Assembly (NCBI RefSeq): GCF_002104515.1
Contig: NZ_NBOE01000010.1
Span: forward strand, 1 to 64,000
Origin: Colwellia polaris
GTDB lineage: Bacteria > Pseudomonadota > Gammaproteobacteria > Enterobacterales > Alteromonadaceae
Direction: 5' to 3'
Length of the DNA stretch: 64,000 nt
Numbering within the stretch: position 1 is the stretch's first letter; every line of letters starts with the position of its first letter. Of the stretch, positions 15,312 through 26,803 are shown piece by piece. The notes under the pieces were generated by a model that did not search any database, was not told where the DNA came from, and saw nothing but the letters and a program-made list of their open reading frames with translations. The position numbers and the translations under genes were made by a program.

Positions 15312-16580
15312 TTAAGGACGAATTTGTCCTTGACCAGCTACGCGATATTTAAAAATTGTTAATTGTTCTAAACCAACAGGTCCACGGGCATGTATTTTTC
15401 CTGTAGCAATACCTATTTCGGCGCCCATGCCAAACTCACCGCCATCAGCGAACTGGGTTGATGCATTATGCATAACAATAGCTGAATCAACGGCGCGCAT
15501 AAATACTTCTGCGACGTCTTGGTTTTCTGTGATGATGGCATCAGTATGTTTTGATGAATGTTCATCAATAAAGTTTAATGCTTCTTCTAATCCTGAAACA
15601 ACTTTGACAGATATAATGGCATCAAGGTACTCAGTACCCCAATCAGCATCGTTAGCTGCATTTATTCTATTGTCACAAGCTTGTGCTGTTTTATCACCTC
15701 TAATTTCGCAACCTAAGAGAGTGTCAACAAGTTGAGGCAGAAATTCATTTGCTATTGCTTGGTCCACGACAAGGCTTTCAGTTGCCCCACAAACTCCAGT
15801 TCTGCGCAGTTTAGCATTATTAACCACGCTCAAAGCTTTGGTTAAATCAGCATCTTTATCAATGTAAATGTGATTATTACCATCTAAGTGCAGTAATGTT
15901 GGAACTTGGGCTTCATTTCTGACTAACTCAACAAGGCCACGACCACCACGAGGAATCACTAAATCCACATATTTAGCACAACGTAATAAAGCAGCAACGG
16001 CTGAACGGTCATCAGTATCAACAAGTTGTATACATGTTGCAGGCAAATTAGCAGCACGTAGACCTGTAGCCATGCAATCAACAATAATGCGAGTTGAGTT
16101 CAGGCTTTCAGAGCCGCCACGTAAAATAACACTATTGCCAGACTTTAAGCACAAAGCGCCTGCATCGGCACCGACATTTGGACGTGATTCATAGATCATA
16201 CCAATAACACCTATAGGTGTTGATACGCGAGATATTTTAAGTCCGTTTGGACGATCAAATTCAGCTAATGAACGGCCAACAGGATCAGGTAGCTTTGCAA
16301 TATCTTCAAGAGCAACAGCCATAGCTTCAACTCTTTCAGGCGTGAGTTTTAATCGGTCAATAAAAGAGTCTGCTTTTCCCGCTTGCTTAACACTGAGTAC
16401 ATCAAGTGCATTTGCTTCAAGTAAAGCAGGGGTATTTTGGCGCAGGGCATCAGCTGCTACGGTTAATGCTTGATTCTTTTGTTCAGTGCTTGCACTGGCC
16501 AGCGCCTTTGCTGCTGCTTTAGCTTGTTTGCCAAGGGTGTTGATCATAGTTTCAATATCGTTCACTGTACTGTCTGACAT
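15312..16580 (-). CDS. proA: Gamma-glutamyl phosphate reductase
   Basis: NADPH-dependent reduction of gamma-glutamyl phosphate to glutamate 5-semialdehyde, the second step of proline synthesis. The aldehyde-dehydrogenase fold shows [20 protein letters not shown], the NAD(P) region [13 protein letters not shown] and the catalytic cysteine in [13 protein letters not shown]. It is 422 residues from the chosen ATG, close to E. coli ProA (417). I chose 16580 because AGGAAA lies six bases upstream. The frame is open 17 codons further, to an ATG at 16631 without such a site. It lies 241 bases downstream of proC on the same strand. Confidence 0.96.
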
Positions 16581-16821
16581 AAAATTTCCTGTTTCTTTTC
16601 GATTACTTGTAAACTGTTTAGTAAAATTCAATGTGTTTGAATTGAGTCAATTTTTGATTGATTATTAATAACATTTATACTTTAAAATTGTTAAAAGCAA
16701 TATTAAAAATTCAGTTTATTTAAAATAACAATATGGCTTTTTAGCATACTGTTGAGAATGTTCTATTAATGGCTGTTGATTAAAAACGTGACTAAAACAA
16801 CGTATAATAACGTGTTAATCA

Positions 16822-17580
16822 TTACCTCAAAGTTATTGCGCGTTCGTAGGCCGACAACACTGTCGAATCAAGTAAGCTTTCTAATGTTGAGCTTTTCATT
16901 AAGGTATCTAGACCTGCTTGAGTAGCGCCATTTTTACTGGTAACTTTACTTTTACTTTCTATGGCTAGCTCAATTGAACCGCCCAGTGTGTTGAGCACCA
17001 AAGCTTTAGCTGCTTTAGGAGAAAAAACCAAGTTAATCGCTGAGTTAATCCAGCAACGGGCAATTTCGAAAGTGTAGCCTGGGCCACTTCTGGCAACGGC
17101 CGTTACTCTATCAAGTTCATCTTCGTTATCAGTAATATGTGTATAACCTACCGCATCTGTTAATTGTTTTGCGATGGTTAACTGAGCATCACTGCAGATT
17201 GCATTAGCGTATATTCCACTAACACCACGGCCAATTTGTGCCGGTAAACTCGGCATTACGCGCACAATAGCACGTTCGCCGATGAGCTTTACTAATGAAG
17301 TAACCGAGTAGCCAGCAGCAATAGAAATTACACAGGCATTACTTTTGAGATAAGCTTGATAAGCAGGTAGTAAGTGCGCTATTAATTGTGGCTTAATGGC
17401 AATAACAACAAAATCGAAACGTTGGCCAGAAAGTTCTTCAAGGGTTTGTGTAACTTTAACACCAGCAGGTGCTTTAACTAATGAAGGATTAATGATGGTG
17501 ATATTTTGATCTGTAGAGGTTGCCCAGCGAGACAGTAAAGCACTGCCCATTTTCCCACAACCAATCATAAGTAAAGACAT
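16822..17580 (-). CDS. proC: Pyrroline-5-carboxylate reductase
   Basis: Last step of proline synthesis: reduces 1-pyrroline-5-carboxylate with NAD(P)H. The 252-residue protein begins with a Rossmann fold (MIGCGKMGSALLSRW, residues 5-19) and carries the family signature near residues 155-170 (TAVARSGPGYTFE) and the helical dimerisation domain (GGSIELA, TLMKSSTLESLLDSTVLSAYERA). It is slightly shorter than E. coli ProC (269). The start has TAGGAGA six bases upstream. It diverges from proB across 391 bases, so all three proline genes lie together. Confidence 0.93.
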   Translation of the reverse strand: MSLLMIGCGKMGSALLSRWATSTDQNITIINPSLVKAPAGVKVTQTLEELSGQRFDFVVIAIKPQLIAHLLPAYQAYLKSNACVISIAAGYSVTSLVKLIGERAIVRVMPSLPAQIGRGVSGIYANAICSDAQLTIAKQLTDAVGYTHITDNEDELDRVTAVARSGPGYTFEIARCWINSAINLVFSPKAAKALVLNTLGGSIELAIESKSKVTSKNGATQAGLDTLMKSSTLESLLDSTVLSAYERAITLR

Positions 17581-17971: not shown

Positions 17972-19150
17972 TTGCCCACATTAGAACAACCAAAATCAGA
18001 AAGTAAACCACGAAACAAACCTCGCATAGTTATTAAAGTCGGCTCTAGCCTGCTAGCAAATGTCAAAAATTTAACCCCTAGCTTTGCTTTTATGCATGGC
18101 TTACTCAGCGATATTGCTAATCTTCGCGACCAAGGCTATGAAGTTGTATTGACTTCATCAGGCTCTGTAGCTTTAGGGCTAAATACCATTGGCAGCACAA
18201 TTGAAAACGCAAGTGTTCAAGATAAGCAAGCGGCCGCTGCTTGCGGACAACCTATTTTAATGCACGCATACAAGCAAATAGCATTAGAGTATGGTTTTGA
18301 TATTGCACAAGTTTTAGTTACCCTAGATGATCTGGAAAACAGACGTCGATTCCTTAATGTTAAAAACACGGTTCATCGTTTAATCAAACAAGGTGTAATG
18401 CCAATTGTTAATGAAAACGATACCGTAACCACCGAAGAAATTCGTGTTGGCGACAACGACCGATTAGCCGCTAAAGTAGCGCAAATGATCGGCGCTGAAC
18501 AATTATTTATCCTGACTTGTATTGATGGTGTTTATGACCGCGACCCTTCTGAAGAGGGGGCTATTTTCGTAGACTCTATTGAAGATGTAAGTAGTTATAT
18601 GGAAGCTGCTAGCGGCACAAGTTCTTTAGGAACTGGCGGTATGCTTACAAAATTACAAGCGGCAAACATGGCGCAAAATGCTGGTTGTACTACTATTATT
18701 GCCCGAGGAACCATGGAAGCACCTGTAACAGGCGTATTAAATGGTGATCGTAAACACACTAAGTGTATTGCACACTCATCACCTTCTTCTGCCTGGAATA
18801 TTTGGTTAACTGATCGCCTTCAAATGGCAGGTAGCTTAGTCATAAAGCAAGAAGTAGCAGACGCATTGTTTGGTGGCGATGACGGGTTTTATTGTCATGA
18901 TGTAGTTTCAATTCATGGCAATTTTGAACGTGCTGATGTCCTTCATGTCTATGACGAAAAAGGTGAAGAAGTCGCTCGCGGTTTATGTAATTTTTCATCA
19001 GATGAAACTGCAATTATTTCAAGCCGTCCAGATGAAACAGTAAAGACCATACTTGGATATACGGCATCACAGCGTTTGATCAATAGTGAAAATCTAGTTG
19101 TTTTAGGTGATCATCATCTTTCTTGGGATGAACCCATACAAAGTGAATAA
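17972..19150 (+). CDS. proB: Glutamate 5-kinase
   Basis: Phosphorylates glutamate, the first committed and proline-inhibited step of proline synthesis. The 392-residue protein has an amino-acid kinase domain (VIKVGSSLLAN near residue 20; IVNENDTVTTEEIRVGDND near 145-163; GTGGMLTKLQAA near 218) and a C-terminal PUA domain (about 290-385), like E. coli ProB. A 15-residue basic leader (KSESKPRNKPR) precedes the kinase core. The start is TTG with CGGAGT upstream. Its product is used by ProA, encoded in the divergent unit. Confidence 0.95.
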   Translation: MPTLEQPKSESKPRNKPRIVIKVGSSLLANVKNLTPSFAFMHGLLSDIANLRDQGYEVVLTSSGSVALGLNTIGSTIENASVQDKQAAAACGQPILMHAYKQIALEYGFDIAQVLVTLDDLENRRRFLNVKNTVHRLIKQGVMPIVNENDTVTTEEIRVGDNDRLAAKVAQMIGAEQLFILTCIDGVYDRDPSEEGAIFVDSIEDVSSYMEAASGTSSLGTGGMLTKLQAANMAQNAGCTTIIARGTMEAPVTGVLNGDRKHTKCIAHSSPSSAWNIWLTDRLQMAGSLVIKQEVADALFGGDDGFYCHDVVSIHGNFERADVLHVYDEKGEEVARGLCNFSSDETAIISSRPDETVKTILGYTASQRLINSENLVVLGDHHLSWDEPIQSE

Positions 19151-19387: not shown

Positions 19388-20182
19388 CTATTTAGCTTTA
19401 TCGTTAAGTTGTATAACAAGGCTCTTGAGTTCAGAAATTTCTTGTTTTAGCTCGCCTAAAGTTGGCTCAGTTTTCTTTTTCTCTCTTGAGCGTTCTTCTT
19501 CCATAACGTTCACAACAATACCGATAACCATATTTAAAAATGCAAATGCGGTGAAAAAGATGAAGGTCATATAATATATCCAACTATAAGGATATACCTC
19601 CATTGTTTCATATTGAATATCGGTCCAATCCTCAAAGGTCATCACCCTAAAAAGTGTTAACATAGATATTGCTATATCGCCCCATAACTTTGGATTAATC
19701 GCATTAAATAAGAAGCTGCCGATAGCGGCATAGATGTAGAAAATAATAAACATAAGCAGCAAAACATAACCTAATTGTGGCATGGCTTTTATCAATGAAT
19801 TTATTAATATTCTCAGCTCCGGCACTACAGATACCATACGTAATACGCGAAATACTCGCACTAGCCTTGCGAGTAAGGCCATTTCAGAATCATTAATGGG
19901 TATAAGGCTTATTACTACCACTAGCGTATCGAAGACATTCCATGCTGACTTAAAAAAATGTTTTTTGTTTTCTTCTGTTAGAAAGCGTAAAGATATTTCA
20001 AATAAGAAAAACAGTGTGATGAATGTATCTAGCACTGATGTTACAGAGACAGCAGTATTGGAAAGCGGGAAGGTTTTTGCGCCAATTTCAAGAGCAGAAA
20101 TTATGATCACACAGATCACCGATAACTCGAAAATCTTATTGTTTCTTAACTTAGTAAAAGTCGTTTTAATATTTTGATACAT
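19388..20182 (-). CDS. Voltage-gated cation channel, BacNav family, with acidic filter
   Basis: A 264-residue, six-helix channel subunit expected to form a homotetramer in the inner membrane. The voltage sensor S4 has arginines at 106, 109, 112 and 115 (ARLVRVFRVLRM). The pore loop reads LFRVMTFEDWTD, so the selectivity filter is Thr182-Phe-Glu184-Asp185-Trp186-Thr-Asp188. Known sodium channels of this family have TLESWSM, while the engineered calcium-selective CavAb has TLDDWSD. Two of the three acidic changes that made CavAb are present naturally here. After S6 (about 203-226) comes a charged neck and a heptad-like coiled coil (about 242-262), as in BacNav channels. It is a single gene that converges on proB. 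Confidence 0.92.
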   Translation of the reverse strand: MYQNIKTTFTKLRNNKIFELSVICVIIISALEIGAKTFPLSNTAVSVTSVLDTFITLFFLFEISLRFLTEENKKHFFKSAWNVFDTLVVVISLIPINDSEMALLARLVRVFRVLRMVSVVPELRILINSLIKAMPQLGYVLLLMFIIFYIYAAIGSFLFNAINPKLWGDIAISMLTLFRVMTFEDWTDIQYETMEVYPYSWIYYMTFIFFTAFAFLNMVIGIVVNVMEEERSREKKKTEPTLGELKQEISELKSLVIQLNDKAK

Positions 20183-20493: not shown

Positions 20494-23370
20494 ATGGCTG
20501 TACCTCACCGAACATTTTTATTCTACTTGCTTATTATACTTTCTAACTTCTTAATTAATAATTCTGCACAAAGTCAAAGTAAACACTCATTTCAATACTT
20601 AGGTAAAAATTTAGGTCAGCAATTGTTAGTCATTGAGGCATTGGAAGACCAAAATAAAGCCTTGAATCTAATTACAGTGCTTTGTGAAGATGAAAGGCTA
20701 TCAACATTAGAAAAACTTTCTGCCTTAGCCAGTAAAGGGAGAATTCTGCATAAATTAGGTCAACTTGAAAACGCGATTAAAGTAGCGCAACAAGAACAAC
20801 AATTAGCAAACCAATTTGAGTTAACTCGAATAGAAGCCGATGCCTATAAAAGAGTGGGTGTTTATGCTTATTATAATGGCAAAAATCAGTTGGCACTTCT
20901 CTCTTATCAGCAAGCTCTTAATTATTACCTCACCCTCGATGAACCTATTGCTCAAGCAAATTTATACAATAATATCGCTTTAGTTTATGGCCGAACTTCT
21001 CAACCTCAACGTGAATTGGCTATTTACCAAAAAATTCAACCTATTTATCAAAAATATGGCAGTAAGAAAGATAACATCGATGTGCTAAGTAATATTGCTA
21101 ATTTGCACTTACGCTTAAAACGGTTTGATACTTCAATACCTATGTATTATGACATTATTGAAAAGCTGTCAGAAACGTCAGATAAAGTCGCCATTGCCAA
21201 AGCTTATAGTGATTTAGGTTCGTCTTATAAAAATGCCGGAGACTATCAACAAGCTGAACATTACATGATATTAGCATTAAGTCTTCATCGGAAAAATAAA
21301 GATGACTATAACGCCGCATCAACATTACATAATTTAGCCGAGTTAAATAATTTTCTTCATAATATTGAGCAAGCGATAAATTACGCACAAGAAAGTATTA
21401 CGCTTGCGCTTGCTCAAGGTCATAGCCTTGCTTATGTTGGTGCTAAATATAGTTTAGCTATCGCTTATTTTTATCAAGGGAAATATGAGTTAGCATTAAA
21501 GCACATTGAAGAATCTACTAAGGTAATCGAAACAATAGATTACAAAGAGCAACTTAAATTTAACTTGTCGTTGCAAGCGCTTATTTATGCTGCACAGAAT
21601 AAAAGTTTTGAGGCGGTTGCCAGCCACCGAGCATTTTTACAAACACAACTTGAATTAGAAAATAAGCAACTTAACACCCAGTTAGCACTTTTTGATTCTG
21701 AACAACTTAAGCAACAAGTTGCGCAATTAAAACAACAAAAATTATTACAGCAATTTGAAGTTGAAGGGGCGTTTCAATCACGTATGATTATTATCATTCT
21801 TGTTATAGCGAGCTCGGTTATAGCATTTTTGGTAGCAAGACGTGGAATAGAAAATCGTTCGAAAATTGCTTTAGAGTCAAAAGTTAAATTGCGTACGACT
21901 GAACTTGAATATTTAATGCAAGAATTGCAAAGCGCCAATAATATTAAAAGCCAATTTTTAGCGAATATGAGCCATGAAATAAGAACCCCGTTAACCACGG
22001 TTATTGGTCAAGCTGAAGCAATAATAAATGGCGATGTTGAAGAAGCTTATATCAGTAAAGAAGTGGAGATAATCCTCGGAAATAGTTTACATTTATTAGA
22101 ACTCACCAATAATATTCTCGACTTAAGCAAAATTGAAGCGAACAAAATTGAGCTTGAAATACAAAATCAAAACTTGCATGACATATTACAAGAGTTGGCC
22201 AATATGTTTTGTTTGCAGGCGAAATCTAAAGGCTTAACATTTGACATTGTTCATCGCTTACCAGAGCCATTTTTTATCGATATTGACAGTGTTCGTGTTA
22301 AACAAATTTTAATTAATCTTTGTGCCAATGCCATTAAATTTACACCCAAAGGGCATGTTGAATTAAATATAAGTCAAACGGCAACACATTTGATGTTTAA
22401 AATTACCGACAGTGGTATTGGGATGAGTAGCTCACAATTACAGCACTTATTTGAAAGCTTTACTCAAGGCGATAGTAGCATTAACCGTCGTTTTGGCGGC
22501 TCAGGGCTAGGCTTATGTTTATCTGATCAATTAGCTAAAATTATGGGGGGGGAAATTGAAGTAGAAAGTGAGCTAAATCAAGGCAGTGTTTTTGCTTTTA
22601 GTCTACCTTGTAAAAATAAATTTAATGAGCAACTTATTGAGAACAAAATATCGGTAATTGACACTTATGTTAATACCGATATTAGCACTGTAGTATCGCC
22701 GAAAAATCTAACAGGCACCATATTACTTGCTGACGATCACAATGATAACCGCCGACTCATAGCAAGGCTACTAGCTTCTATAGGACTAGATGTAATTACC
22801 GCTCGAAATGGACATGAAACAATTACGTTATTTAAACAGCATAATCCAACTTTAGTACTAATGGACATACAAATGCCTGAAATGGATGGAATTGAGGCGT
22901 TTAAAGTTTTACGTCAACAAGGCTTTCAAACTCCTGTGATTGCACTAACTGCTAATGCTATGTCTCATGAAATAGAACACTATTTATCATTAGGTTTTGA
23001 CGATCATTTATCAAAACCCATTGAACGAGATGTGTTTATAAACACAGTTGCAAAGTATTACGATGGTAGTATTACGTTGGAAATAGCGAATGAAGGTTTC
23101 AATAGTGTTGATATGACCGATTTAGCTGAAGAGTTTAAATCGAATTTAGTATTAGAGCAGCAAGATTTAATACTACATATAAACAATCAAAACTTTGAGA
23201 AGCTTTCAAAACTATCGCATCGTATTGCTGGCGCAGCACAAATGTTTGGTTTTGCTGAACTTTCTCAATATGCTATTAAACTAGAAGCTGCGATTAAAAA
23301 TAATAAGAGCGTAGAAGTTAATGAATATACTCAAAAACTACTTAACGAAATAGACCAAGTATTATGGTAA
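20494..23370 (+). CDS. TPR hybrid sensor histidine kinase (HisKA-HATPase-REC-Hpt), copy 1
   Basis: A 958-residue phosphorelay protein. It has a signal-anchor N-terminus (about 8-28), tetratricopeptide repeats (about 70-380), a coiled coil, a membrane helix (about 430-450), then HisKA with His494 (MSHEIRTPL), the HATPase domain (N-box LCANAIKF, DSGIGMSS, GGSGLGLCLS), a receiver with Asp791 (LVLMDIQMPEMDG) and an Hpt domain with His909 (HRIAGAAQMFGF). The TPR region probably faces the periplasm and senses a ligand or partner protein. The relay should run His494-Asp791-His909 to an unlinked regulator; no output protein is adjacent. It is a paralogue of the next gene. Confidence 0.93.
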   Translation: MAVPHRTFLFYLLIILSNFLINNSAQSQSKHSFQYLGKNLGQQLLVIEALEDQNKALNLITVLCEDERLSTLEKLSALASKGRILHKLGQLENAIKVAQQEQQLANQFELTRIEADAYKRVGVYAYYNGKNQLALLSYQQALNYYLTLDEPIAQANLYNNIALVYGRTSQPQRELAIYQKIQPIYQKYGSKKDNIDVLSNIANLHLRLKRFDTSIPMYYDIIEKLSETSDKVAIAKAYSDLGSSYKNAGDYQQAEHYMILALSLHRKNKDDYNAASTLHNLAELNNFLHNIEQAINYAQESITLALAQGHSLAYVGAKYSLAIAYFYQGKYELALKHIEESTKVIETIDYKEQLKFNLSLQALIYAAQNKSFEAVASHRAFLQTQLELENKQLNTQLALFDSEQLKQQVAQLKQQKLLQQFEVEGAFQSRMIIIILVIASSVIAFLVARRGIENRSKIALESKVKLRTTELEYLMQELQSANNIKSQFLANMSHEIRTPLTTVIGQAEAIINGDVEEAYISKEVEIILGNSLHLLELTNNILDLSKIEANKIELEIQNQNLHDILQELANMFCLQAKSKGLTFDIVHRLPEPFFIDIDSVRVKQILINLCANAIKFTPKGHVELNISQTATHLMFKITDSGIGMSSSQLQHLFESFTQGDSSINRRFGGSGLGLCLSDQLAKIMGGEIEVESELNQGSVFAFSLPCKNKFNEQLIENKISVIDTYVNTDISTVVSPKNLTGTILLADDHNDNRRLIARLLASIGLDVITARNGHETITLFKQHNPTLVLMDIQMPEMDGIEAFKVLRQQGFQTPVIALTANAMSHEIEHYLSLGFDDHLSKPIERDVFINTVAKYYDGSITLEIANEGFNSVDMTDLAEEFKSNLVLEQQDLILHINNQNFEKLSKLSHRIAGAAQMFGFAELSQYAIKLEAAIKNNKSVEVNEYTQKLLNEIDQVLW

Positions 23371-23944: not shown

Positions 23945-26803
23945 ATGACGATTTCCAATAGTAGGGTGTTAACTACTGCATTATTTTTATTTGTTACTTT
24001 TTTCGTCAGCTTTACAGCACATAGCCAAAATAAAAATTCACTTCCTGATAGAGAAAACAACTTCAATCAACGGCTACTAGCGATTGAAAACATGAAGGAT
24101 AATAATGAAGCTTTACAGTTAATTACCACGCTAAGCGAAGATAATTCATTACCGATACTCAATAAACTGGCTGTATTAGCAACTAAAAGCAGAGTGCTAC
24201 AGCAACTAGGTCAACTAGAAAATGCCATCACTGTTGCTCAAAAAGAACAAGAGCTAGCTAAAAAGTTTCACTTTAACCGACTCGAAGCTGACGCCTATAA
24301 AAGGGTAGGAGTTTATGCCTATTATAAGGGGAATAATGAGCTAGCTTTAAGCGCTTATCAACAAGCACTAAATTATTACCTAACCATTAATGAACCTATT
24401 GCCCAAGCCAATTTATACAATAATATAGCCTTAGTACATGCCGTTACTAGTGAATTTGAAAGTGCGTTACTTAGCTACCAAAAAGCTGAGAAAATATATC
24501 AGGTATATGGTAGTGAAGCCGATAAAATCGATGTTAAATTTAATATTGCCGGTTTTCATTTAGAATTAAAACGTTACGATATTGCTATATCTATGTACCT
24601 CGATGTAATAGAAAGACGAACAGAAATTGGCGATTTTCAAGGCCTTGTGATGGCCTATTGTGACTTAGGTACTTCTTATCGCTATAAAGGAGATTTTGTA
24701 AAAGCAGAGTACTACTTGCTCTTGTCGCTAAATTCTTCACGAAAAAACAAAGACGACTTTTATCTTGCTACAGTCTTACATAATTTAGCTGAATTGCACA
24801 ATGCTCTTCAAAATTCCGACAAAGCAATGGCTTATGCAAAAGAGGGAATTAAACTCAGTATTGAACAAGGGCATGACAATGCTTATGCAGGCACATTATA
24901 TAGCCTAGCTAAAGCTAACTTTTATCAAGGAAATTATGAATCTGCACTTACGTTAGTAGAGCAGTCAAACGAGGTTGCTGAAAAGCGACAAATCAAAGAC
25001 CAAATACAATATAACCTTTCGTTAAAAGCACTAATATACGCAGCGCTTCATCAAAATTATAAAGCAGTATCTAGCCAGTATGACTTTTTGAAAGCACAAT
25101 TTGAATTGTCTAATAGTGAACTTAACTCCAAATTAGCCTTATTTAACTCTAAGCAGCTAAAGCAACAGGTGCAACAACTAAAGCAGCAAAAGCGCTTACA
25201 AGAGCTTGAAATGGAACGAGCATCACAGGCTCGAACTATTATTATTATTGCCATTGTTGCCACACTATTAATAAGTTTTTTAATAACCCACCGTATTATT
25301 GAGCGTCGTTCTAAAAGCGCGCTTGAAACAAAAGTTAAACAACGTACCACCGAGCTTGAATATTTGATGCAAGAGTTGCAAAACGCCAATAATATTAAAA
25401 GCCAGTTTTTAGCGAATATGAGTCATGAAATAAGAACCCCGTTGACCACAGTTATTGGACAAGCTGAAGCTATTATTGATGGCGATGTTGAAGAGGAGTT
25501 TATCGGTAAAGAGGTGGAAATAATTCTTGGTAACAGCCTACATTTATTGGAACTTACCAACAATATTCTCGATTTAAGTAAAATTGAAGCGAACAAAATA
25601 GAACTTGAAATACAAAGGCAAAACTTACATAACATTTTGCAAGAGCTCGCTAATATGTTTTCTTTGCAAGCTAAGTCTAAAGGCTTAACATTCGATATTG
25701 TACATTGCTTACCTCAGCCATTTTTAATCGATATTGATGGTTTTCGGGTCAAACAAATTTTGATCAATCTATGTGCTAATGCCATTAAATTTACGCCTAA
25801 AGGGCATGTGGAATTAAAAATAAGCCAGAGTGAAACGCATTTAATGTTTAAAATTACCGACAGTGGCATCGGCATGAGTAGCTCACAGCTACAACACTTA
25901 TTCGAAAGCTTTACTCAAGGCGACAGTAGCATTAATCGACGTTTTGGTGGCACAGGCCTAGGTTTATGTTTATCTGATCAATTAGCCAAAATTATGGGGG
26001 GAGAAATTGAAGTAGAGAGTGAGTTAAACCAAGGCAGTGTTTTTGTTTTTAGCTTACCTTGTAATGCAAGTATCAGTGAACATTGTAGCGAAGAAAAAAT
26101 ATCATCGAACCAAATAGCTAAAGATAAACTTGAGCTACAATTGCAAGGTACCATACTTTTGGCAGAAGACCACAACGACAATCGTCGGCTTATTGCTCGT
26201 TTGCTTGCCTCAATAGGGCTAGATGTTATAACCGCACGTAATGGTTATGAAGCTATTACACTATATCAGCAGCATCAACCATGCTTAGTACTAATGGATA
26301 TTCAAATGCCAGAAATGGATGGTATTGAAGCGTTTAAAATTTTACGCCAGAAAGGTTATCAAACCCCGATTATTGCCTTAACAGCGAATGCAATGTCGCA
26401 TGAAATAGCGCACTACTTATCATTAGGGTTTAATGGGCATTTGTCTAAGCCGATTGAACGAAATATATTTATCCCCACCATCGCAAAATACTATGACGGC
26501 AGTATCACACAAGAGCAAGCTAACGAAAGTTTTGATCAGGTTGATATGTCAGATCTAGTTAAAGAGTTTAAATCTAACCTAGTGTTAGAGCAGCAAGATC
26601 TTATTCTGCATATTAACAATAATGACAATGACAAGCTTTCAAAGTTATCGCATCGCATTGCCGGCGCCGCACAAATGTTTGGTTTTGCTGACTTATCTAA
26701 ATATGCTATTGGCCTAGAGTCGGCGATTAAGAATAACGATAGTGATGGCATTAACAAGCACACCCAAGAGTTACTTAATGAGATAGACAAAGTGCTGTGG
26801 TAA
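23945..26803 (+). CDS. TPR hybrid sensor histidine kinase (HisKA-HATPase-REC-Hpt), copy 2
   Basis: A 952-residue paralogue of the preceding kinase with the same domain order: N-terminal hydrophobic segment, TPRs, coiled coil, one membrane helix, HisKA with His494, HATPase, receiver with Asp785 and Hpt with His903. The kinase core is almost identical to copy 1 (from LEYLMQELQ through LFESFTQGDSSINRRFGG), whereas the TPR sensor and the linker before the receiver differ clearly. The two proteins may therefore feed one pathway from different signals, and could cross-phosphorylate or form mixed dimers. The receiver begins ILLAEDHNDN here and ILLADDHNDN in copy 1, both with the acidic pair. Confidence 0.93.
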   Translation: MTISNSRVLTTALFLFVTFFVSFTAHSQNKNSLPDRENNFNQRLLAIENMKDNNEALQLITTLSEDNSLPILNKLAVLATKSRVLQQLGQLENAITVAQKEQELAKKFHFNRLEADAYKRVGVYAYYKGNNELALSAYQQALNYYLTINEPIAQANLYNNIALVHAVTSEFESALLSYQKAEKIYQVYGSEADKIDVKFNIAGFHLELKRYDIAISMYLDVIERRTEIGDFQGLVMAYCDLGTSYRYKGDFVKAEYYLLLSLNSSRKNKDDFYLATVLHNLAELHNALQNSDKAMAYAKEGIKLSIEQGHDNAYAGTLYSLAKANFYQGNYESALTLVEQSNEVAEKRQIKDQIQYNLSLKALIYAALHQNYKAVSSQYDFLKAQFELSNSELNSKLALFNSKQLKQQVQQLKQQKRLQELEMERASQARTIIIIAIVATLLISFLITHRIIERRSKSALETKVKQRTTELEYLMQELQNANNIKSQFLANMSHEIRTPLTTVIGQAEAIIDGDVEEEFIGKEVEIILGNSLHLLELTNNILDLSKIEANKIELEIQRQNLHNILQELANMFSLQAKSKGLTFDIVHCLPQPFLIDIDGFRVKQILINLCANAIKFTPKGHVELKISQSETHLMFKITDSGIGMSSSQLQHLFESFTQGDSSINRRFGGTGLGLCLSDQLAKIMGGEIEVESELNQGSVFVFSLPCNASISEHCSEEKISSNQIAKDKLELQLQGTILLAEDHNDNRRLIARLLASIGLDVITARNGYEAITLYQQHQPCLVLMDIQMPEMDGIEAFKILRQKGYQTPIIALTANAMSHEIAHYLSLGFNGHLSKPIERNIFIPTIAKYYDGSITQEQANESFDQVDMSDLVKEFKSNLVLEQQDLILHINNNDNDKLSKLSHRIAGAAQMFGFADLSKYAIGLESAIKNNDSDGINKHTQELLNEIDKVLW

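Follow-up and report, generated by a model that had tools for sequence, protein, structure and literature searches.

The gene at 19388..20182 on the minus strand of the window, the 64,000-nucleotide stretch of Colwellia polaris DNA analysed here, raises the question of which ion a voltage-gated channel would admit when its selectivity filter reads T-F-E-D-W-T-D. The filter occupies residues 182-188 of the translated ORF (T182 F183 E184 D185 W186 T187 D188; 19619..19639, on the minus strand, as are all channel features given below). An earlier note, made from the letters alone, had read it in this form, had pointed out that Glu184 is kept and that two of the three aspartates of the calcium channel CavAb are in place (D185 and D188), and had predicted permeability to calcium or to both ions. 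These readings of the residues hold, and the calcium prediction stands only in part. The explanation that we favour, with confidence evenly balanced between right and wrong, is that of a sodium-preferring channel that would be inhibited by calcium and weakly permeable to it.

The ORF runs from an ATG start to its stop over 264 aa and encodes a one-domain six-helix voltage-gated cation channel. It matches the Pfam Ion_trans domain (E-value 1.6e-46; 158.9 bits, where the cut-off is 25), with all six helices and the pore loop of that domain present, and in a sequence search the top one-domain solved structure is NavRh (4dxw, 3.1e-59). The AlphaFold2 model (mean pLDDT 67.9, pTM 0.42), which is of middling confidence, resembles NavAb, CavAb, NavMs, NaChBac and NavRh in fold, at TM-scores of roughly 0.5-0.7 (0.5-0.65 for the first four). 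The S1 helix (residues 16-36; 20075..20137), the S4 voltage sensor (residues 99-118; 19829..19888), S6 with its neck (residues 200-236; 19475..19585) and a C-terminal coiled coil of three heptads (residues 242-263; 19394..19459) are all helical in this model. The four gating arginines noticed earlier (R106, R109, R112 and R115 of S4) and their S2/S3 partners (E62, N82 and D85) do not vary in either of two alignments, of 24 and of 30 sequences. The coiled-coil tail, likewise part of the first description, is confirmed by its a/d residues (L242, L245, I249, L252, V256 and L259) and the model helix, and L245, E248 and K253 are nearly invariant in the 30-sequence alignment. On its sequence, the protein is a one-domain voltage-gated-type channel, predicted to form a homotetramer with a depolarisation-opened current.

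The 4.43-Mb, 28-contig genome of the window channel contains no other Ion_trans match at E <= 0.001, and close named relatives of the channel are from Colwellia and Cognaticolwellia. Each of the 16 same-genus genomes sampled contains one channel match, 11 of them at 87-94% identity and five at 59-61%; with a single match in each genome, the notion that the ~60% homologue is a second copy was rejected. Wider sampling found matches in 49 of 60 relatives (E <= 0.001), in 52 of 369 genomes over the class (E <= 1e-60) and, with the family profile, in 128 of 398 genomes over the phylum (E <= 1e-15), the last figure indicating that the observation is not due to chance. In the named collection at least 576 of the 594 pattern-matched stretches encode a relative, and the best 80 of these were analysed as named loci. 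A plasmid search returned 39 records with weaker relatives of the channel. Three phylum-sample rows (G436, G308 and G392) were left out of the locus set, as were G035, G023, G051 and eleven weak matches (3.0e-9 to 7.1e-4) from the relatives' set.

The resulting census, which leans toward the bacterial class of the window and is thus an uneven sample of the family, comprised 308 loci and 290 distinct channels (distinct meaning a difference within residues 21-200). By profile score these fall into three groups: A, window-like (178); B, with NavRh (47); and C, with every TLESWSM channel (65). The filters of group A are TFEDWTD in 165 channels, TFESWAT in five, TFESWTS in four, TLEDWTD in two, and TLEGWTD and TFDNWAH in one each; those of group B are TLEDWTD in 42, with one each of TFEDWTD, TLSSWET (NavRh), TLESWTS, TLEGWTQ and TMSSWEN; and those of group C are TLESWSM in 46, with 19 others. 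The counts from the 80 named loci are biased, as the filter itself was part of one of the six patterns used to find them; when these loci are removed from group A, TFEDWTD still accounts for 96 of 108 channels. The pattern xxEDWTD is present in 210 of the 225 distinct channels of groups A and B, the window channel included. It is the ordinary state of these groups, and the filter is not rare.

Phylogenetic analysis, with filter columns masked, was performed on 91 rows, namely the window channel and 90 representatives chosen by similarity and filter from 241 loci. Groups A and B are split from group C (55 rows, 36 of them TLESWSM) at 99/98. With midpoint rooting the window clade of 26 rows is supported at 97/95; it joins NavRh, flagged as a long branch, at 100/99, and these two together join, at 99/98, a clade made up mainly of TLEDWTD channels. 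In a second tree of 74 rows with a TLESWSM outgroup the set of NavRh plus the window clade is again recovered at 100/99; here NavRh pairs with another channel, L284, and the window side has only 83/87 without these two. NavRh is itself represented among the loci by a channel (L157) with one difference from 4dxw in 223 aligned residues. Canonical channels are represented in the trees by relatives with the TLESWSM filter, among them L235, which has NavMs as its best match of known structure, and the rows contain no stand-in for NaChBac. A tree mapped by filter had been suggested with the first description; the trees made here set the channel apart from TLESWSM, and by the census TFEDWTD is the commonest filter of its own group, with the window channel no exception. 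The label "BacNav-type" that the channel had been given is loose, since its placement falls outside the TLESWSM clade. A group of such channels, the AnclNavs, has been published as separate from the canonical BacNavs (PMC7041947). The window channel fits this group in standing apart from the canonical NavAb-like branch and in having a TLESW-like filter with extra acidic residues, an assignment drawn from sequence and from trees in which NavPp and CavMr do not figure. It is an unexceptional member of a large group from which few recordings exist.

The channel shares with NavAb, CavAb, NavMs and NaChBac the fold, the S4 arginines and the tail helix, but differs from NavAb-type channels around the filter. 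It has neither the CavAb nor the CavMr type of filter (TLDDWSD, or Gly at position 4), with Glu at position 3 and Asp at position 4, nor the canonical signature of TLESWSM with Gln in the P1 pore helix and Arg in P2; in their places are R179 and Y191. The distance from the filter tryptophan to the next tryptophan is 16 in 42 of the 46 TLESWSM channels and 14 in the other four; among the 210 xxEDWTD channels it is 15 in 186 and 13 in 23, with no further tryptophan in one. In the 23 we take an earlier tryptophan, as seen in L149, to stop the count. P2 is accordingly one residue shorter in xxEDWTD channels than in TLESWSM channels, and the canonical channels have in addition their separate clade. 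Counting from the filter threonine, D185 and D188 correspond to NavAb S178 and M181, as the earlier note had it; the equivalence of D188 to M181 becomes ambiguous by alignment because of the shorter P2. NavRh, although it is 40% identical in the fold search and stands beside the window clade in the trees, departs from the window channel in its TLSSWET filter and in a P1 Gln instead of Arg, and the NavRh-like L157 frame stops directly after S6 without the coiled coil.

The residues behind the filter also separate the two kinds of channel. R179 (19646..19648) lies in the P1 pore helix three residues before the filter threonine, at the place of NavAb Gln172, and this place is R in 210/210 xxEDWTD channels and Q in 46/46 TLESWSM channels. 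In P2 a Y at W+5 is found in 210/210 xxEDWTD channels and an R at W+6 in 46/46 TLESWSM channels; Y191 (19610..19612) aligns with NavAb Arg185 if a one-residue gap is placed directly after the filter tryptophan. Both R and Y are retained in all five ESWTS channels and in the single TLEGWTD and TLEGWTQ channels. The five TFESWAT channels have Q, a Y at W+6 followed by P, and a longer P2, and Q also stands at the P1 place in NavRh and in the TMSSWEN and TFDNWAH channels. Of the other 19 group C channels 17 have Q, and only two have R at W+6, which indicates that the Q-R pair marks TLESWSM channels and not the whole of group C. In NavAb, Gln172 bonds to the backbone of Glu177 and is held by Arg185, and the Q172N mutant gave no current, with five cells recorded per mutant (PMC12919392). 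We read the R179/Y191 pair as a different lock behind the filter, of which the sequence signature is observed and the geometry and effect are predicted. The sections of the AnclNav and NavAb literature used here make no mention of this signature, which appears to be new. As R/Y replaces the Gln172-Arg185 network and P2 is a residue shorter, the logic of CavAb need not carry over. The same lock may explain why canonical calcium filters fail in NavPp and why filter swaps between CavMr and NavAb, which gave no current, are silent (PMC7041947). The pair alone would not exclude calcium selectivity, since it also occurs with a Gly-4 filter (L241, TLEGWTD).

Other Gly-4 filters were encountered in adjacent same-strand channel pairs, found in four genomes (L191/L201 in G091, L196/L202 in G128, L181/L210 in G152 and L229/L184 in G239). 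The members of a pair carry different filters, T[MS]EGWPD and TTEGWP[TS], and the pairs occur in two families. The eight channels form one clade (100/100) that divides according to pair member, which makes the pair an old one, and they are candidates for a two-subunit bacterial channel with a CavMr-like glycine. A further four channels (L231-L234, f73) have the filter TMDGWRF, with a positive residue in the filter, and stand on a long stem of the tree.

Plesiocystis pacifica, the source of NavPp, belongs to a different phylum from the organism of the window, and Halomonas elongata and Teredinibacter turnerae are Gammaproteobacteria. No recording of any TFEDWTD channel came up in searches of open-licence PMC papers, and the nearest case, judged from the sections of the papers used here, is NavPp. 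This one-domain AnclNav has the filter TLEDWTD (PMC8002053), identical to that of the window channel at six of seven positions with L instead of F at position 2, the comparison being one of filters. NavPp prefers sodium and is inhibited by calcium: in its T232A form PCa/PNa is 0.308, PK/PNa is 0.16 and the value for caesium relative to sodium is 0.005, and calcium permeates while lowering the current and shifting the gating (PMC7041947). The difference at position 2 is not expected to create or remove calcium block, because L176F at this position of NavAb (N49K form) showed none (PMC10349818). Set against the NavPp record, the CavAb-based argument for calcium permeability of the window channel is weak. 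For NavRh, the neighbour in the trees, block by external calcium has likewise been described (PMC4444806), though its filter is TLSSWET. These likenesses favour the sodium-preferring, calcium-inhibited channel proposed above, which builds on the observed fold, filter, S4 arginines, clade and R179/Y191 signature; the presence of the channel in all 16 same-genus genomes was also counted in its favour. Against it, the body of the window channel is different from those of both NavPp and CavMr. As the nearest recorded filter prefers sodium, ion preference must be measured and not read from the filter. Absence of current would be uninformative, given that two AnclNavs with NavPp-like filters, from H. 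elongata and T. turnerae, are reported as silent (PMC7041947).

The same records bear on whether the channel could be natively calcium-selective, with D185 and D188 acting as in CavAb or the body favouring calcium as in CavMr. A roughly 100-fold gain in calcium over sodium is reported for NavAb with TLEDWSM (PMC10120453), and CavMr carrying the NavPp filter has a PCa/PNa of 13.8 (PMC7041947), from which it follows that the channel body outweighs the filter; these two records, with the permeation of calcium through NavPp, still speak for the calcium prediction. The T-type calcium channels are the top phmmer matches among solved structures, a weak point because their multi-domain chains sum several matches. 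NavPp with the very same acidic residues nevertheless prefers sodium, and TLEDWSD and TLEDWAD, which made canonical channels calcium-selective, did not make NavPp (T6S, T6A) calcium-permeable (PMC7041947). CavMr, from Meiothermus ruber and proposed as a member of the AnclNav group, resembles the window channel in E at position 3 and D at position 7, but has Gly 4 and Val 6, both important for its calcium selectivity; its D7M mutant retains a calcium selectivity of 144, against 218 for the parent form G240A, so that Asp 7 is not the source (PMC7041947). At position 4 the window channel has Asp in place of the Gly on which CavMr depends and with which NavPp-D4G gained calcium (PMC7041947), and its shorter P2 and the residues behind its filter are unlike those of NavAb. 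The L6 loop of CavMr is also extended and carries a disulfide (PMC10120453), an addition for which the window channel, with its short P2-S6 stretch, appears to have no space. Judged by the nearest recorded channel, calcium selectivity would be less probable than a preference for sodium combined with inhibition by calcium, and we consider it doubtful.

A cation channel of weak selectivity that admits sodium, potassium and calcium to a like extent, in the manner of several NavPp or CavMr mutants, of NaChBac mutants or of the diatom EukCatA, is unlikely to a similar degree. In its favour, NavPp T6V has a PCa/PNa of 1.72 and a PK/PNa of 0.99; CavMr with the NavPp filter has a PK/PNa of 0.95 (PMC7041947), and NaChBac with LEDWAS or LEDWAD is described as non-selective (PMC8002053). 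The low potassium and caesium values of NavPp T232A speak against such a channel. A plain sodium-selective channel like the canonical BacNavs, in which the extra aspartates have no effect on permeation, would agree with the shared fold and with the neutral filters that recur in the clade; the 99/98 split from the TLESWSM clade and the different surroundings of the filter make it very improbable.

For the sodium-preferring, calcium-inhibited channel the following mechanism can be proposed. Four subunits, held together by the coiled coil, would form a voltage-opened pore, in which depolarisation moves the S4 arginines and thereby opens S6. The pore would prefer sodium modestly. Calcium at millimolar external concentration would bind the ring of E184 and D185, pass weakly and inhibit the sodium current, as in NavPp. 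R179, in the place of the filter-bracing Gln172 of NavAb, would reshape and partly neutralise the filter and may tie up D188; with R179 present the extra aspartates would not yield a CavAb-like calcium pore. These contacts of R179 with the filter are proposed from sequence, alongside a model of the middling confidence given above. Physiologically, the channel might serve as a depolarisation-triggered inlet for sodium, and some calcium, in sea water.

Conserved gene neighborhoods were surveyed around the best 80 of the at least 576 named loci, in flanks of up to 6 kb, some of which are cut by contig ends. In the window the channel gene lies near genes of the proA type (15312-16631, minus strand), proC type (16822-17580, minus strand) and proB type (17972-19150, plus strand), names read from their Pfam domains, and near two tandem TPR-hybrid histidine kinases on the plus strand (20494-23370 and 23945-26803; TPR, HisKA, HATPase, receiver and Hpt domains). 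The two kinases are similar to each other, and a relative flanks the channel in close kin; a family like the adjacent kinase is found at six of the 80 loci, all from Colwellia or Cognaticolwellia. A conserved link to proline or osmolyte synthesis was rejected, as relatives of both proA and proB occur in the flanks of only three of the 80 (L033, L034 and L036). No dedicated operon partner was found around the 80 loci; the commonest neighbor family is present at 22, with a representative that resembles, on our reading, a TolC-type outer-membrane protein. With no neighbor shared more widely than this, the channel probably functions without any fixed partner. In five loci of the same genus (L028, L029, L030, L031 and L307) the channel is only ~60% identical to that of the window. 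In three of these (L028, L029 and L031) it lies between relatives of the sodium:neurotransmitter-symporter-type gene and of the TPR histidine kinase of the window, and in L030 it lies near the symporter-gene relative only, within the flanks; in these four loci the diverged channel looks like a replacement in place.

The census further points to a paired loss of the filter aspartates. Positions 4 and 7 are D/D in 210 of the 225 channels of groups A and B and S with S or T in 11, NavRh (TLSSWET) included; the other four are S/N, G/D, G/Q and N/H. None of the 225 combines D at position 4 with any other residue at position 7, or S at position 4 with D at position 7. On the 74-row tree the state with S at 4 and S or T at 7 requires seven changes with NavRh, five of them forced by starred branches; six remain without NavRh and the odd rows, and four if L148 and L149, which lie within the TFESWAT part, are also set aside. 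The neutral filters ESWTS and ESWAT recur within the window clade, among D/D channels, which suggests that a NaChBac-like neutral filter probably arose several times, if the direction of change is as it appears. Among the best 80 named loci the sole neutral filter (TFESWTS) is that of Vibrio sp. 10N.261.55.A7 (L106). ESWTS pore loops otherwise resemble those of their own EDWTD neighbors.

A more abrupt difference was observed within genus g76, where L149 (G443) is identical to L153 and L154 (G364 and G106) at 113 and 107 of 124 residues of the voltage-sensor part and at only 21 of 34 in the pore loop. L149 has TFEDWTD, Arg and a short P2, and the other two have TFESWAT, Gln and a long P2. At the protein level this looks like a mosaic with a swapped pore-loop cassette, and the DNA windows contain no sharp breakpoint. 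Recombination as the only cause of the paired D-to-S changes is unsupported, in view of this and of the likeness of ESWTS loops to their EDWTD neighbors. Taken together, these observations allow a broader proposal, which we put forward tentatively and think somewhat more apt to fail than to hold: that the R179/Y191 lock makes the extra aspartates calcium-inhibiting and not calcium-conducting, that within this part of the family these aspartates were lost pairwise on several occasions, leaving a NaChBac-like neutral filter, with the lock residue and the P2 length switching as well in one case, and that nature has thereby repeated the sodium/calcium filter swap.

The filter of the window channel is exactly the one on which a published rule and a recording conflict. 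In its strict wording the beacon review holds that an aspartate at position 4 confers calcium selectivity in every case; its wider wording allows either calcium selectivity or a calcium-blocked sodium conductance, and neither NavPp nor Plesiocystis is named in its main text (PMC10120453). As the window channel belongs to a large set of Gammaproteobacterial channels with this filter, recording one or two of them would show which rule holds beyond NavPp, and since TFEDWTD and TFESWAT both occur naturally in a single genus, the comparison can be made between channels of similar body. Of the present findings, the two that merit pursuit are the R179/Y191 signature and the recurrent loss of the aspartates in pairs; the former offers a concrete, testable reason why mutagenesis results from canonical channels did not carry over to NavPp.
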